Notes under the pieces: model-generated | What the model was told of the DNA's origin: nothing | The model's database searches: none | What the model saw: only the letters and a program-made list of their open reading frames with translations | In this document: positions 7,356 to 31,342 of the stretch, piece after piece | Position numbering within the stretch: the stretch's first letter is position 1 | Layout of the letters: every line of letters begins with the position of its first letter | Position numbers and translations under genes: made by a program | Assembly: GCF_022809715.1 (NCBI RefSeq) | Contig: NZ_CP094459.1 | Coordinates: 1,054,001-1,118,000, forward strand | Length of the DNA stretch: 64,000 bases | Source of the DNA: Burkholderia pyrrocinia | GTDB taxonomy: Bacteria > Pseudomonadota > Gammaproteobacteria > Burkholderiales > Burkholderiaceae | Direction: 5' to 3'

Positions 7356-8390
7356 ATGATCGAATTACGCAATCTTTCGCAGCGTTTCCCCGGGCCGAGC
7401 GGCTGGGTCGAGGCGCTGCACAACGTCAACCTGACGATTCCGCAGGGCGAGGTGTTCGGCATCATCGGCCGAAGCGGCGCCGGCAAGAGCACGCTCGTGC
7501 GCACCATCAACCTGCTCACGCGGCCGACCGAAGGCAATGTCGTCGTCGGCGGGCGCGATCTCACGCTGCTGCCGGCCGGCGCGCTGCGCGAGGCGCGCCG
7601 CGAGATCGGCATGATCTTCCAGCACTTCAACCTGCTGTCGTCGCGCACGGTGTTCGACAACGTCGCACTGCCGCTGGAGCTGGCCGGCGCAAGCCGTGCC
7701 GACATCGAGGCCGCCGTGCTGCCGCTGCTCGACCTCGTCGGGCTGTCCGCGCAGAAGGATCGTTACCCGGCGCAGATCAGCGGCGGACAGAAGCAGCGCG
7801 TCGGCATCGCACGCGCGCTCGCGAGCCAGCCGAAGGTGCTGTTGTCGGACGAAGCGACGTCCGCGCTCGATCCCGAGACCACACGTTCGATCCTCGACCT
7901 GCTGAAGCGCATCAACCGCGAACTCGGCCTGACGATCGTGCTGATCACGCACCAGATGGAAGTGATCAAGCAGGTGTGCGATCGCGTCGCGGTGCTCGAT
8001 GCGGGGCGGGTGGTCGAGGAGGGCCGCGTGATCGACGTGTTCCTGCAGCCGCATCACGAAGTGACGCGCGCGCTGATCGGCGACGTGATCGCGCAGGAAC
8101 TGCCGCCCGCGCTGAAGGTGCGCGTGGCCGAGCGGCTGAAGACAGGTAGCGGGCATCTGCTGCGGCTCGCGTTCACGGGCTCGGGTGTCGACCAGCCGAT
8201 CCTGTCGGAGACGATCCGCCGATACGAACTCGATTTCAACATCCTGCACGGCCAGATCGACGAGATTCAGGGGCAGGCATTCGGTTCGCTCGCGGTGCTC
8301 GCGGGCGGCGAGCCGGGCAAGGTCGGGCAGGCGCTCGCGTTCCTGCGCGAGCAAGGTGTGGTGGTAGAGGAGCTTTCGTATGTTGAGTGA
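7356..8390 (+). CDS. metN: Methionine ABC transporter, ATP-binding subunit
   Basis: A 344-residue ABC ATPase energising D/L-methionine uptake. Walker A is GRSGAGKST (residues 38-46), the signature is [15 protein letters not shown], and Walker B is [13 protein letters not shown] followed by the switch His in VLITHQM. The C-terminal 90 residues form the NIL (ACT-like) domain that binds methionine and trans-inhibits the pump. The length equals E. coli MetN. An in-frame ATG at 7233 would add 41 residues unlike any MetN N-terminus and of AT-richer composition, so I start at [11 protein letters not shown]. The last 11 bp overlap metI. Confidence 0.95.
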
Positions 8391-27330: not shown

Positions 27331-27831
27331 TCAGATGCGCTTGCGCTCGTAGACGACGAACGCATAACCGAACGTGTTCGGCGCGGCAGCCTGGTGTGCA
27401 TCGCGCGAGACTTCCTGCCAGTGCGCGGCGTCGGGCGCAGGGAACGATGCATCGCCGTCGAAGTCGGCATCGATCTCGGTGACGACCAGTTTATCCGCGA
27501 GCACGAGGCCTTCCGCGTAGAGTTGCGCACCGCCGATCAGGAATGCTTCGGGCACGCCGTCACGTGCGGCGAGCGCCAGCGCGTCGGCGAGCGACGTGAC
27601 CGTATCGCAGCCATCGAAGCGGCGCGTTGCGTCGCGCGTGACGACGATGTTGCGGCGGCCCGGCAGCGGCCGGCCGATCGACTCGTGGGTCTTGCGGCCC
27701 ATCACGATCGGCGCGCCCATCGTCGTGCGCTTGAAGAACGCGAGATCCTCGGGAAGTTTCCAGGGCAACTGGTTGTCGCGGCCAATGATGCCGTTGCGGG
27801 CACGCGCGACGATCAGGGTCAACGTCGTCAT
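27331..27831 (-). CDS. folA: Dihydrofolate reductase
   Basis: A 166-residue NADPH-dependent enzyme that regenerates tetrahydrofolate after thymidylate synthesis. The active site is [21 protein letters not shown], where the Glu-Asp after LP supplies the acid. Further NADPH-binding blocks are [19 protein letters not shown] and [13 protein letters not shown]. thyA is 2.5 kb away on the other strand, so the usual thyA-folA partners stay near each other. ATG at 27831 gives the standard length. Confidence 0.95.
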
Positions 27832-27971
27832 GAAGGTCGGAGAAGAGGAAAGCCGGAATGGCGCCGATTCTACCGGAACGGCGGTGCATGCCGGATTCCT
27901 CGCACCTGCATCGGCTTTCCGGTGTTGCGCGCCGCGATGCGCGATGCAGTGGCGGCGCGGCGACGGACTGA

Positions 27972-28003
27972 GTAAAAAGAGTGCCCGCCGGGGGACGGAG
28001 CAC
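27972..28003 (-). terminator. Possible terminator for the small exported-protein gene
   Basis: On the minus strand GTGCTC...GGGCAC forms a short G-C-rich stem followed by TCTTTTTACT. The stem is imperfect, so this is tentative. The rest of the 275-bp gap 27832-28106 shows no gene. Confidence 0.35.
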
Positions 28004-28106
28004 AAAAAAACGTTTCGTGTCGCGGGGGCGGTGAGGGTGGTCGCGATCGATGCTGTCGGCCGATTCGGATAACTACGGAATCCTCATCGAATGGATTGGT
28101 GCATGC

Positions 28107-28433
28107 TCACTGGTGCGTGGTGCCTTGGGTGTTTTTTTCCATCGCATGCTGCACGTCGCGTGGCTGCGGTACCGGGAGCGGTGTCGGCAACTGGGGCGGA
28201 GGCGGGATCTCGTCCCACAGCGTCACCGAAGCCTTGCCGGCCGGCAGTGGTTGCGGTGCCGACACGGTCACGATGCCGAACCCGTTGCCGGGCTGCATGC
28301 CTGGCGCGTTTTCCGCAAGCAGCATCGCGCGATCCAGCTTCACGTTTTCATCCGCGTGCGCCGGCGCGGGCGGGCCGGCGGCCGAGAGCGAAATCGCCAT
28401 CGGCACGAAAGAAAGTAACAGATGTTTTCGCAT
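28107..28433 (-). CDS. Small exported proline-rich protein of unknown function, sigma-54 promoter
   Basis: A 108-residue protein I do not recognise. Residues 1-26 are a signal peptide (MRKHLLLSFVPMAISLSAAG...AHA); no cysteine follows, so it should be released to the periplasm or outside. The mature part is about 80 residues with VKLDRAMLLAENAPGMQPGNG, VTLWDEIPPPPQLP and a Pro/Gln tail. GGAGACA precedes the ATG. A sigma-54 promoter lies at 28462-28477, and the gene is divergent from a sigma-54 activator. Induction by that activator, and hence a role in surface or biofilm biology, is an inference from position. Confidence 0.75.
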   Translation of the reverse strand: MRKHLLLSFVPMAISLSAAGPPAPAHADENVKLDRAMLLAENAPGMQPGNGFGIVTVSAPQPLPAGKASVTLWDEIPPPPQLPTPLPVPQPRDVQHAMEKNTQGTTHQ

Positions 28434-28461
28434 GGTCGCTGTCTCCGATATATTCTTATTC

Positions 28462-28477
28462 AGCGAAATACATGCCA
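28462..28477 (-). promoter_or_regulatory. Sigma-54 (RpoN) promoter of the small exported-protein gene
   Basis: Read on the minus strand: TGGCATG-TATT-TCGCT against the consensus TGGCACG-N4-TTGCW. The invariant GG and GC are 10 bp apart as required. Transcription should start near 28451, about 18 bp before the ATG and just upstream of GGAGACA. Confidence 0.72.
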
Positions 28478-28542
28478 TCGCGCCGGAACCCTTGCCACGA
28501 CTGCGATTCACGCACACGCGTCGACACTTGCGGCGAAAAACG

Positions 28543-28567
28543 CCTGAAAATGTTTCAGGCCTGAAAC
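28543..28567. repeat. Overlapping CCTGAAA/TTTCAGG palindromes, candidate enhancer (UAS)
   Basis: CCTGAAA-ATG-TTTCAGG (28543-28559) overlaps the perfect 16-bp palindrome GTTTCAGGCCTGAAAC (28552-28567), so the half-site occurs three times. It is 92-116 bp upstream of the predicted sigma-54 start point, the usual distance for an enhancer-binding protein site. Confidence 0.65.
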
Positions 28568-28931
28568 GAGGGGGCTTGGGAATACTGCGGATTCAATCAA
28601 TACGCGTCAAGGATGAAAATCGACGCGTGTGTCGATGAAAGCACACTTCGCTGCGCAAGTGTTATGTGCAGATGATTGACATACGTCGACCTCCCGAGCG
28701 ATTCGACCGCATCGCTTGAGGCGCTGAAATCGATTTGTCGCATTCAGTGCCTATAACTAAGCTGTCTTGATCAAAAAACGGACGCGAGATAAGCGCCATC
28801 ATGCGAGGCATTGTCGTTGCCGCGCATCGGCATGGCGAATCGAGCCACCTTGGGCTGACCCGATTCGATCCTTTCGCACGCGACCTGGCGTGCGCGGCAA
28901 TCGTTAGATGGTTGATGAACGGGGTGGGCAT

Positions 28932-30329
28932 ATGGGAGCCGATCAGCGGCACGTGATCTATTACTCGCGCGAACCGAACGATGCGTTGCGCGGCCATTTC
29001 GACGAATGCGGTTGGCGCGTCGATCTCGCGGAGACCGTACGCGACGTACGACGCGTCGTGCAGCACGGTGTTGCAACGGCCGGCCTGCTCGATTTCTCGC
29101 CGGGCTTCAAGCCCTCGGACCTGCGCGAACTCGAATCCTGCCTGAGCATCCAGCACATCGGCTGGATCGCGGCGACGCGGCGCGGCCAGTTGCAGGACGC
29201 CACGCTGCGCCATCTCATTCGCGACTATTGCTTCGACTACGTGACGATGCCGTACGAGATGTCGCGGATCGTCGAGACCGTCGGTCATGCACATGGCATG
29301 GTCGCGCTGACCGAGCCCGTTGTGCCGCTCGCCGGTGCGGGTCGCAGCGAAGGCGAGATGGTCGGCACCTGCGATGCGATGCTCGGACTCTTCAGGACAA
29401 TCCGTCGCGTCGCATCGACCGACGCGCCGGTGTTCATCTCCGGCGAATCGGGCACGGGCAAGGAACTGACGGCGGTCGCGATTCACGAGCGTTCGTCGCG
29501 TGCGCAGGCGCCGTTCATCGCGATCAATTGCGGTGCGATCCCGTCGACGCTGCTGCAGGCCGAGTTGTTCGGTTATGAGCGCGGCGCGTTCACCGGTGCG
29601 AACCAGCGCAAGATCGGCCGCGTCGAGGCCGCCAACAGCGGCACGCTGTTTCTCGACGAGATCGGCGACCTGCCGCTCGAAAGCCAGGCAAGCCTGTTGC
29701 GTTTCCTGCAGGAAGGCAAGATCGAGCGGCTCGGTGCGCACGTATCGGTGCCGGTCGATGTGCGCGTGATCTGCGCGACGCACGTGGACATGGAAACGGC
29801 GTTGCGCGAAGGGCGGTTCCGCGAGGACCTGTTCCATCGCCTGTGCGTGCTGAAGATCGAGGAGCCGCCGCTGCGCGCGCGGGGCAAGGACATCGAGGTG
29901 CTCGCGCGCCACATGCTCGAGCGTTTCAAGGGCGACGCGCATCGGCGCCTGCGCGGCTTTTCCCCCGATGCGGTGGCCTCGCTGTACGGCTATTCGTGGC
30001 CGGGCAACGTGCGTGAGCTGATCAATCGCGTGCGCCGAGCGATCGTGATGTCGGAGGGCCGGATGATCACCGCGGCCGATCTCGAGCTGAACGACTACGC
30101 GACGCTTGCGCCCGTGTCGCTGCTGGAGGCGCGCGAGGCGGCCGAACGGCAGGCGATCGAGCAGGCGCTGCTGCGCCATCGCGGCCGTTTCGCGGACGCC
30201 GCGCGCGAACTCGGCGTGTCGCGCGTCACGCTCTACCGGCTGATGTGCGCGCACGGAATGCGCGATCGCGGCGACGCGCTGGCAGGGTTTCCGGCGTCGT
30301 TGCCGGAGCTTCCGCATCACGCTTGCTAA
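28932..30329 (+). CDS. Sigma-54-dependent transcriptional activator, VpsR-like
   Basis: About 465 residues in three parts. Residues 1-125 form a degenerate receiver-like domain similar to that of Vibrio VpsR, with Asp54 (GLLDF) at the expected phospho-acceptor place but without the usual acidic pocket. The AAA+ domain (about 140-380) has Walker A GESGTGKE (171-178), an intact GAFTGA loop (218-223) for sigma-54 contact, and Walker [12 protein letters not shown] (237-247). A Fis-type helix-turn-helix ends the protein ([16 protein letters not shown]). VpsR and the Burkholderia BerB-type activators respond to c-di-GMP; whether this one does is unknown. Start ATG 28932 (GGGGTGG upstream) is preferred over 28908. 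Confidence 0.88.
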
Positions 30330-30370: not shown

Positions 30371-31342
30371 ATGAAACAGTATCTCGACCTCGTTCGTACC
30401 ATTCTCGATACCGGCACCTGGCAGGAGAACCGCACGGGGATCCGCACCATCAGCATGCCGGGCGCGATGCTGCGCTTCGACCTGCAGCAAGGCTTCCCGG
30501 CGGTCACGACCAAGAAGCTCGCGTTCAAATCCGCGGTCGGAGAACTGGTCGGCTTCCTGCGCGCGTCGCGCAGCGCGGCCGATTTCCGCGCGCTAGGCTG
30601 CAAGGTGTGGGACGCGAACGCGAACGAGAACGCGCAGTGGCTCGCGAACCCGTATCGCCAGGGCGTCGACGATCTCGGCGACGTGTACGGCGTGCAATGG
30701 CGCCAGTGGCCGGGCTACAAGGTGCTCGATGCGGGCGCCGATGCGCAGATCGGCGACGCGACGCGCCGCGGCTTCCGGGTCGTCACGCGTTTCGACGAAG
30801 ACGGCGCACCGAAGGTGCTGCTGTACAAGGCGATCGACCAGCTACGCCAGTGCCTGGACACGATCATGGAGAATCCGGCCGACCGTCGTATCCTGTTTCA
30901 CGCGTGGAATCCGGCCGTGCTCGACCAGATCGCGCTGCCCGCATGCCATCTGCTGTACCAGTTCCTGCCGAATGCGACGAAGCGCGAGATCTCGCTGTGC
31001 CTGTACATCCGCAGCAACGACGTCGGGCTCGGCACGCCGTTCAACCTGACGGAAGGGGCCGCACTGCTGTCGCTCGTCGGCCGGCTGACGGGCTATACGC
31101 CGCGCTGGTTCACGTATTTCATCGGCGACGCGCACATCTACGAGAATCAGCTCGACATGCTGCAGCAGCAGCTCACACGTGAGCCGTACGAAAGCCCGCG
31201 GCTCGAGATCGCCGAGCGCGTGCCCGAATACGCGAAGACGGGTGTCTATGCGCCCGAGTGGCTCGAGCAGATCGAGCCGTCCGATTTCTCGCTCGTCGGC
31301 TATCGCCACCACGAGCCGCTGACCGCGCCGATGGCGGTCTGA
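30371..31342 (+). CDS. thyA: Thymidylate synthase
   Basis: A 323-residue enzyme converting dUMP to dTMP with methylene-tetrahydrofolate. The nucleophile is Cys192 in [21 protein letters not shown] binds phosphate, and [18 protein letters not shown] and [11 protein letters not shown] follow. It is about 60 residues longer than the E. coli enzyme because of an insertion around [16 protein letters not shown]...[12 protein letters not shown], a long form also known from Lactobacillus. AAGGAA precedes the ATG. It follows the activator gene by 41 bp, but the junction looks incidental. Confidence 0.95.

Follow-up and report, generated by a model that had tools for sequence, protein, structure and literature searches.

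The gene pair at positions 28107 to 30329 of the window (the whole 64,000-nucleotide stretch of Burkholderia pyrrocinia DNA that was analysed) most probably comprises a VpsR/BerB-type sigma-54 activator of several surface/matrix genes and, divergent from it, the gene of a small LWDE-motif protein as its adjacent target; the probability of this reading is put at about 0.8. The locus has the following features:

28107..28433, minus strand: gene of the small proline-rich protein, 108 aa, ATG to TGA
28353..28433, minus strand: putative Sec signal peptide (residues 1-27, ending in APAHA before DEN), predicted from sequence together with its cleavage site
28197..28229, minus strand: conserved core SVTLWDEIPPP (residues 69-79), from alignment
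28451, minus strand: predicted transcription start, by arithmetic (the -12 C lies 12 nt ahead of it and the ATG 18 nt past it)
28462..28477, minus strand: sigma-54 promoter TGGCATGTATTTCGCT (-24/-12; TGGCATG-N4-TCGCT; GG-N10-GC)
28543..28559, no strand: second overlapping palindrome CCTGAAA-ATG-TTTCAGG, present here, not conserved
28552..28567, no strand: predicted 16-bp activator box GTTTCAGGCCTGAAAC (GTTTCA-N4-TGAAAC), 74 bp from the promoter TGG
28604..28619, no strand: uncertain, possibly a second, weak site (3 mismatches), 52 bp upstream of the box
28908..30329, plus strand: gene of the VpsR/BerB-type sigma-54 enhancer-binding protein, 473 aa, divergent to the small gene; domains VpsR (9-126), AAA+ (152-318) with GAFTGA at 226-231, and HTH_8 (409-444)

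In the proposed mechanism the activator (28908-30329) would bind the 16-bp box, placed with its near edge 74-75 bp ahead of the -24 element, would loop to the RNA polymerase-sigma-54 held at TGG-N10-GC and would open the promoter by ATP hydrolysis, with the small LWDE-motif protein gene as its adjacent target. Through the same module elsewhere in the genome it would regulate several surface/matrix genes, the best-supported further target being an NfrB/NfrA-type exopolysaccharide operon together with the operon divergent to it, one of whose products is a DUF2334 protein. Activator binding, RpoN dependence and the direction of control we infer from the sequence, and the signal to the activator is probably c-di-GMP.

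The promoter carries GG-N10-GC at -24/-12, and both its position and that of the predicted start at 28451, as well as the small gene on the minus strand, were confirmed in the sequence as the preliminary description had placed them. The divergent sigma-54 activator with an intact GAFTGA motif was likewise borne out, since its three domains scored above the Pfam cut-offs: the VpsR N-terminal domain PF20161 (75.6 bits vs 23.7), Sigma54_activat PF00158 (227.7 bits) and the Fis-type HTH PF02954 (41.5 bits vs 22). The best NCBIfam score of the activator was to the PEP-CTERM response regulator TIGR02915, yet at 393.5 bits against a cut-off of 502.6 it is not a member of that family. The pair is flanked on one side by what we take to be a dihydrofolate reductase-like gene, contained in the minus-strand ORF 27331-28005, and on the other by a presumed thymidylate synthase-like gene, whose start at 30371 is 41 bases past the activator. 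Both members of the overlapping palindrome pair described earlier are present, but only the one at 28552-28567 is conserved; the other was exact in 7 of 54 and 12 of 30 loci, and was dropped on this conservation as a functional site, which it probably is not. The weak site at the 52-bp offset recurred with two to three mismatches at 27 of the 54 loci, 26 of them in Burkholderia.

Conservation was followed in three sets of loci (30, 20 and 54) which overlap in species and whose counts are inflated by shared inherited DNA. The 54 named loci, from Burkholderia, Paraburkholderia, Trinickia, Pararobbsia and metagenome bins, were found by the small protein alone in a protein-alignment scan, the box not being used to find them, and all of them combined a divergent activator with a perfect box set 74 or 75 bp from TGG-N10-GC. 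The check proposed in the preliminary description, that promoter and palindrome be conserved together with the gene pair, was thus passed in 54/54 with the box at 28552-28567, and the predicted activator-box-promoter link is for this reason strongly supported. The 30 aligned loci of the same genus, the window included, all had the promoter TGGCATG[CT]ATTTCGCT, with the box perfect in 29 and bearing one mismatch in the remaining one, and with a box-promoter gap of 74 in 29 and of 75 in one. Weaker small-protein matches yielded 20 further loci, in 19 of which a strong GG-N10-GC promoter followed a perfect box; G031 was the odd one out, its VpsR-type gene lying about 8 kb away and possibly not being orthologous.

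A genome-wide pattern for sigma-54 promoters, tried first, was uninformative (20 matches vs 38 control matches). The box itself was commoner than chance: perfect copies occurred 3 times in the 7.69 Mb genome vs 0.05-0.1 expected, and copies with at most one mismatch at 16 places, where base or dinucleotide composition predicts about 2.5-4.4, while the reversed control pattern had a single place in the same genome. TGG-N10-GC stood at gap 74/75 for 7 of these 16 near-boxes (0.13 expected, P ~1e-10) and, with the window as the source of the geometry removed, for 6 of 15 (P ~5e-9). Among 299 genomes of the family, 121 contained the exact module (gap 72-77) vs one match of the reversed control, and its distribution followed that of the activator: 112/126 genomes with a close activator orthologue had it vs 9/173 without (Fisher 2e-54, kinship ignored), a close orthologue being defined by the N-terminal domain with a best E of at most 2e-34, a threshold set after viewing the list. 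Within the genus the exact module was present in 39/41 genomes, and the two lacking it (G134 and G187) had neither a close orthologue (best E 3e-22) nor a small-protein match. Fourteen genomes had an orthologue but not the exact module; when gaps of 60-109 were allowed, 13 of these showed a promoter preceded by a box with no more than two mismatches, the gap being 75 in 11 genomes, 72 in one and 65 in another. The gap lengths 72-77 together gave 174 matches vs 31 over the thirty gaps 80-109, that is, about one match per gap length in the latter range, where the control gave 3. Against the main model stand the nine genomes with the module but no close orthologue, and G095, in which an activator orthologue was present yet no box was found in the stretch examined (L219, gaps 60-109).

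The circuit had been described as self-contained, and this proved wrong: the box-promoter module also precedes other genes in the genome, the modules with gap 74/75 being that of the window and those at C1:3464712, C1:2922953, C2:2656159, C2:2656417, C3:1052965 and C2:99166. Two of them, C2:2656159 and C2:2656417, are divergent, with nfrB/nfrA-like genes on one side vs a small exported protein and the DUF2334 protein on the other. When nfrB orthologues were chosen by protein similarity in 61 genomes of the genus, 24 matched, and the box was present in all 22 that were at least 84% identical and had upstream sequence, the own genome included (21 perfect, counting the partial L215, and one with one mismatch; gap 73-76). 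Two nfrB pieces with no usable upstream sequence (L212, L218), which are outside the 22, show no box, and none was found at four distant homologues of 45-50% identity (L213, L214, L216, L217). The module at C1:2922953 precedes a glycine-rich exported repeat protein, the one at C3:1052965 an ORF of unknown kind, and near C2:99166 and C2:9.5k there are only short ORFs. An exported protein with long GGGTSGGGTSG repeats was seen at L073 (5330-6763), with a one-mismatch box at gap 74, and a repeat-rich protein (GPSGPS) follows the module at L131.

Five relatives with the C1:3464712-type promoter (L118-L122) were fetched since they have the exact module, and in these a secreted protein gene lies about 590 bases past it; all three of the proteins tested matched PF05229, the Spore Coat U domain, at 110 bits vs a cut-off of 22.4; this domain marks Csu-type pili. 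No spore-coat-U-type gene was found by motif at the own-genome C1:3464712 site (L066), and the ORF of 110 aa that follows the L066 promoter matched no Pfam family. A short ORF (MSKIISAVTRLLS...) follows the L066-type promoter both there (8128-8370) and in L118-L122, with an in-frame length change between species, and it may be a microprotein. Some of the nine other near-boxes of the genome are probably due to chance: the one-mismatch boxes at L069, L070, L071, L072 and L077 are without TGG-N10-GC at gap 74/75 and were treated as such, and L076, a one-mismatch box with no promoter at the expected gap, was set aside. Flp-pilin-like ORFs were recognised by eye near the latter box (L076, 5846-6667).

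The box is not private to the activator, which also counts against the main model: it occurs perfectly beside a paralogue in two genomes (G126 and G268) and, as a near-box at gap 86, before a prpB-like gene. This last site (GTTTCAAAAATGAAAT; L075, C2:1979138) lies beside a PrpR gene (PrpR_N 155 bits) and was set aside as a PrpR-linked site rather than a target of the activator. Several gap 84-86 matches in other genomes (e.g. G252:C2:801994) look homologous to its layout, so that the box alone is not specific, and such matches would fit a box that serves a PrpR-type or other activator, or a repressor of the two divergent genes, something else then driving the sigma-54 promoter. The prp geometry, however, differs by about one helical turn, and where the ORFs downstream of gap 74-75 modules were read, no propionate gene was recognised, which makes this explanation very improbable.

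A stronger competitor is provided by the paralogues, as four activators with the VpsR domain and similar recognition helices are encoded in the genome; the box could be read mainly by the one at C2:7.6k or C2:1.20M, with the divergent neighbour a bystander, and the three paralogues could also share some distal targets with the activator under the main model. Related boxes do occur near these two, downstream of the C2:7.6k gene at a gap of exactly 74 (29 of the 30 loci given of 36 matches at least 91% identical) and at gap 75 for the C2:1.20M paralogue, and the perfect GTTTCA-N4-TGAAAC in the near-identical genomes G126 and G268 follows the C2:7.6k paralogue at a distance of about 235 bases. 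In most species, however, the C2:7.6k box differs from that of the window, reading exactly GTTTCAGTTTCG[CT]AAC in 21/29, as does the C2:1.20M box, which in the one genome is GATACATTCCTGAAAC (GATACA-N4-TGAAAC), and the divergent neighbour was present at 54/54 small-protein loci. We consider it unlikely that a paralogue is the main reader; the operators rather seem to have diverged between the paralogues, with the geometry kept in three of the four.

In G083, G205, G240 and G263 another VpsR-type activator gene, which shares 60-63% identity with the chromosome-2 paralogue, was seen a few kb from the small-protein locus. Upstream of the C2:1.20M VpsR-type activator there is a run of small exported Gly/Ser/Ala-rich proteins (L113, 9662-12795, on the own C2), sitting behind the variant box and a strong sigma-54 promoter, which looks like a matrix or fibre operon.

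The fourth VpsR-type activator, at C2:481k, was taken as BerB because the published berA promoter was found exactly at C2:490291, followed after 191 bases by the start of a Crp-type regulator gene, an arrangement that matches the published berA. BerB of B. cenocepacia, a known sigma-54 activator that binds c-di-GMP, acts in concert with RpoN and this second messenger (excerpts of PMC5552954), and with this gene near berA in the own genome it might itself regulate the small gene. Its target berA, however, has no GTTTCA-N4-TGAAAC within 260 bp upstream (4 mismatches at best), and BerB was rejected on this ground, its involvement being highly unlikely. The window activator itself is not the BerB orthologue, which should lie near berA and act at its promoter, since the berA promoter is near another VpsR-type gene and is without the box.

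The small LWDE protein belongs to an uncharacterised target family. A profile search with a limit of E 1 found no Pfam or NCBIfam family, none of the 115 relatives yielded by a search of predicted proteins bears a precomputed Pfam domain, and the AlphaFold2 model was of low confidence (mean pLDDT 60.6, pTM 0.16). The family search gave matches in 87/299 genomes, and in five pairwise comparisons dN was 0.09-0.14 vs a dS of 0.19-0.40. Its conserved portion consists of VTLWDE, invariant across 14 aligned sequences including that of the window, and of prolines. The protein had been described as exported and proline-rich, and in the window its N-terminus is MRKHLLLSFVPMAISLSAAGPPAPAHA followed by DEN, the 13-residue hydropathy maximum is 2.03 and a proline-rich tail occupies the C-terminal end, but export does not hold in general. 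A hydrophobic start was present in 16/16 homologues from other genera examined (1.59 or more), while in the sister genus g10 a signal-peptide-like start was absent in 9 of the 10 homologues examined (hydrophobicity maximum 1.11); export is therefore not a constant feature of the family. These sister-genus homologues (L125, L223, L224, L227-L232) keep the LWDE core without a signal-peptide-like start, and begin 33-163 nt past the promoter. For Burkholderia a surface role is favoured at modest odds; the protein may have a structural matrix role or exert feedback on the activator.

Taken with the regulator, these targets would likely form a c-di-GMP-linked surface or matrix programme, and the link to c-di-GMP, biofilm and matrix is better supported because of the NfrB/NfrA target and the published relatives of the activator. 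The pair looks like a local arm of a wider surface-coat control system. A broader reading is offered tentatively, as a possibility short of even odds: that a set of VpsR-type activators in the Burkholderiaceae reads variants of the 16-bp box at a nearly constant 74-75 bp from the promoter, switching separate surface modules (an exopolysaccharide synthase, Csu-like pili and repeat-rich exported proteins) in response to c-di-GMP, with the LWDE protein as a new family that some genera export and another apparently keeps in the cytosol, and that would act as a matrix component or in feedback on the activator. A concrete operator and geometry for VpsR/BerB-type activators would make Burkholderia and Paraburkholderia regulons predictable from sequence, and an exopolysaccharide locus and an uncharacterised protein family are named as testable targets.

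No description of a GTTTCA-N4-TGAAAC operator was found in the parts of the full-text literature covered, a scope that leaves aside figures and most subscription journals, nor were expression data for the window genes found in the available parts of PMC5979394, PMC5491218 and PMC5507470. Among the closest known systems is BerB of Burkholderia cenocepacia H111, a sigma-54 activator with GAFTGA (excerpts of PMC5552954 and PMC9684580): the paralogue taken as BerB also has the VpsR domain and can be aligned to the window activator, but it has a different locus and a target, berA, without the box, and c-di-GMP binding is known for BerB (PMC5552954, in part), not for the window activator. The VpsR domain family is also common to VpsR and BrpR of Vibrio. 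VpsR acts without RpoN (PMC5552954, in part), unlike the sigma-54 model proposed here. BrpR, the VpsR homologue of V. vulnificus, controls several exopolysaccharide loci and binds a palindrome in which the 5th C and the 12th G are critical (excerpts of PMC8268162); the window box has both C5 and G12, the likeness being one of these critical positions. NfrB of E. coli is a c-di-GMP-activated exopolysaccharide synthase (excerpts of PMC8669469), which the locus here resembles in its GT2 glycosyltransferase, its C-terminal MshEN-like region (MshEN score 22.4, just under the Pfam cut-off of 23.1) and its NfrA_C partner, and from which it differs in being preceded by the sigma-54 module. The sigma-54 module is real, strongly conserved and of a known kind; its operator is newly predicted, its regulon wider than the gene pair and its target family uncharacterised.
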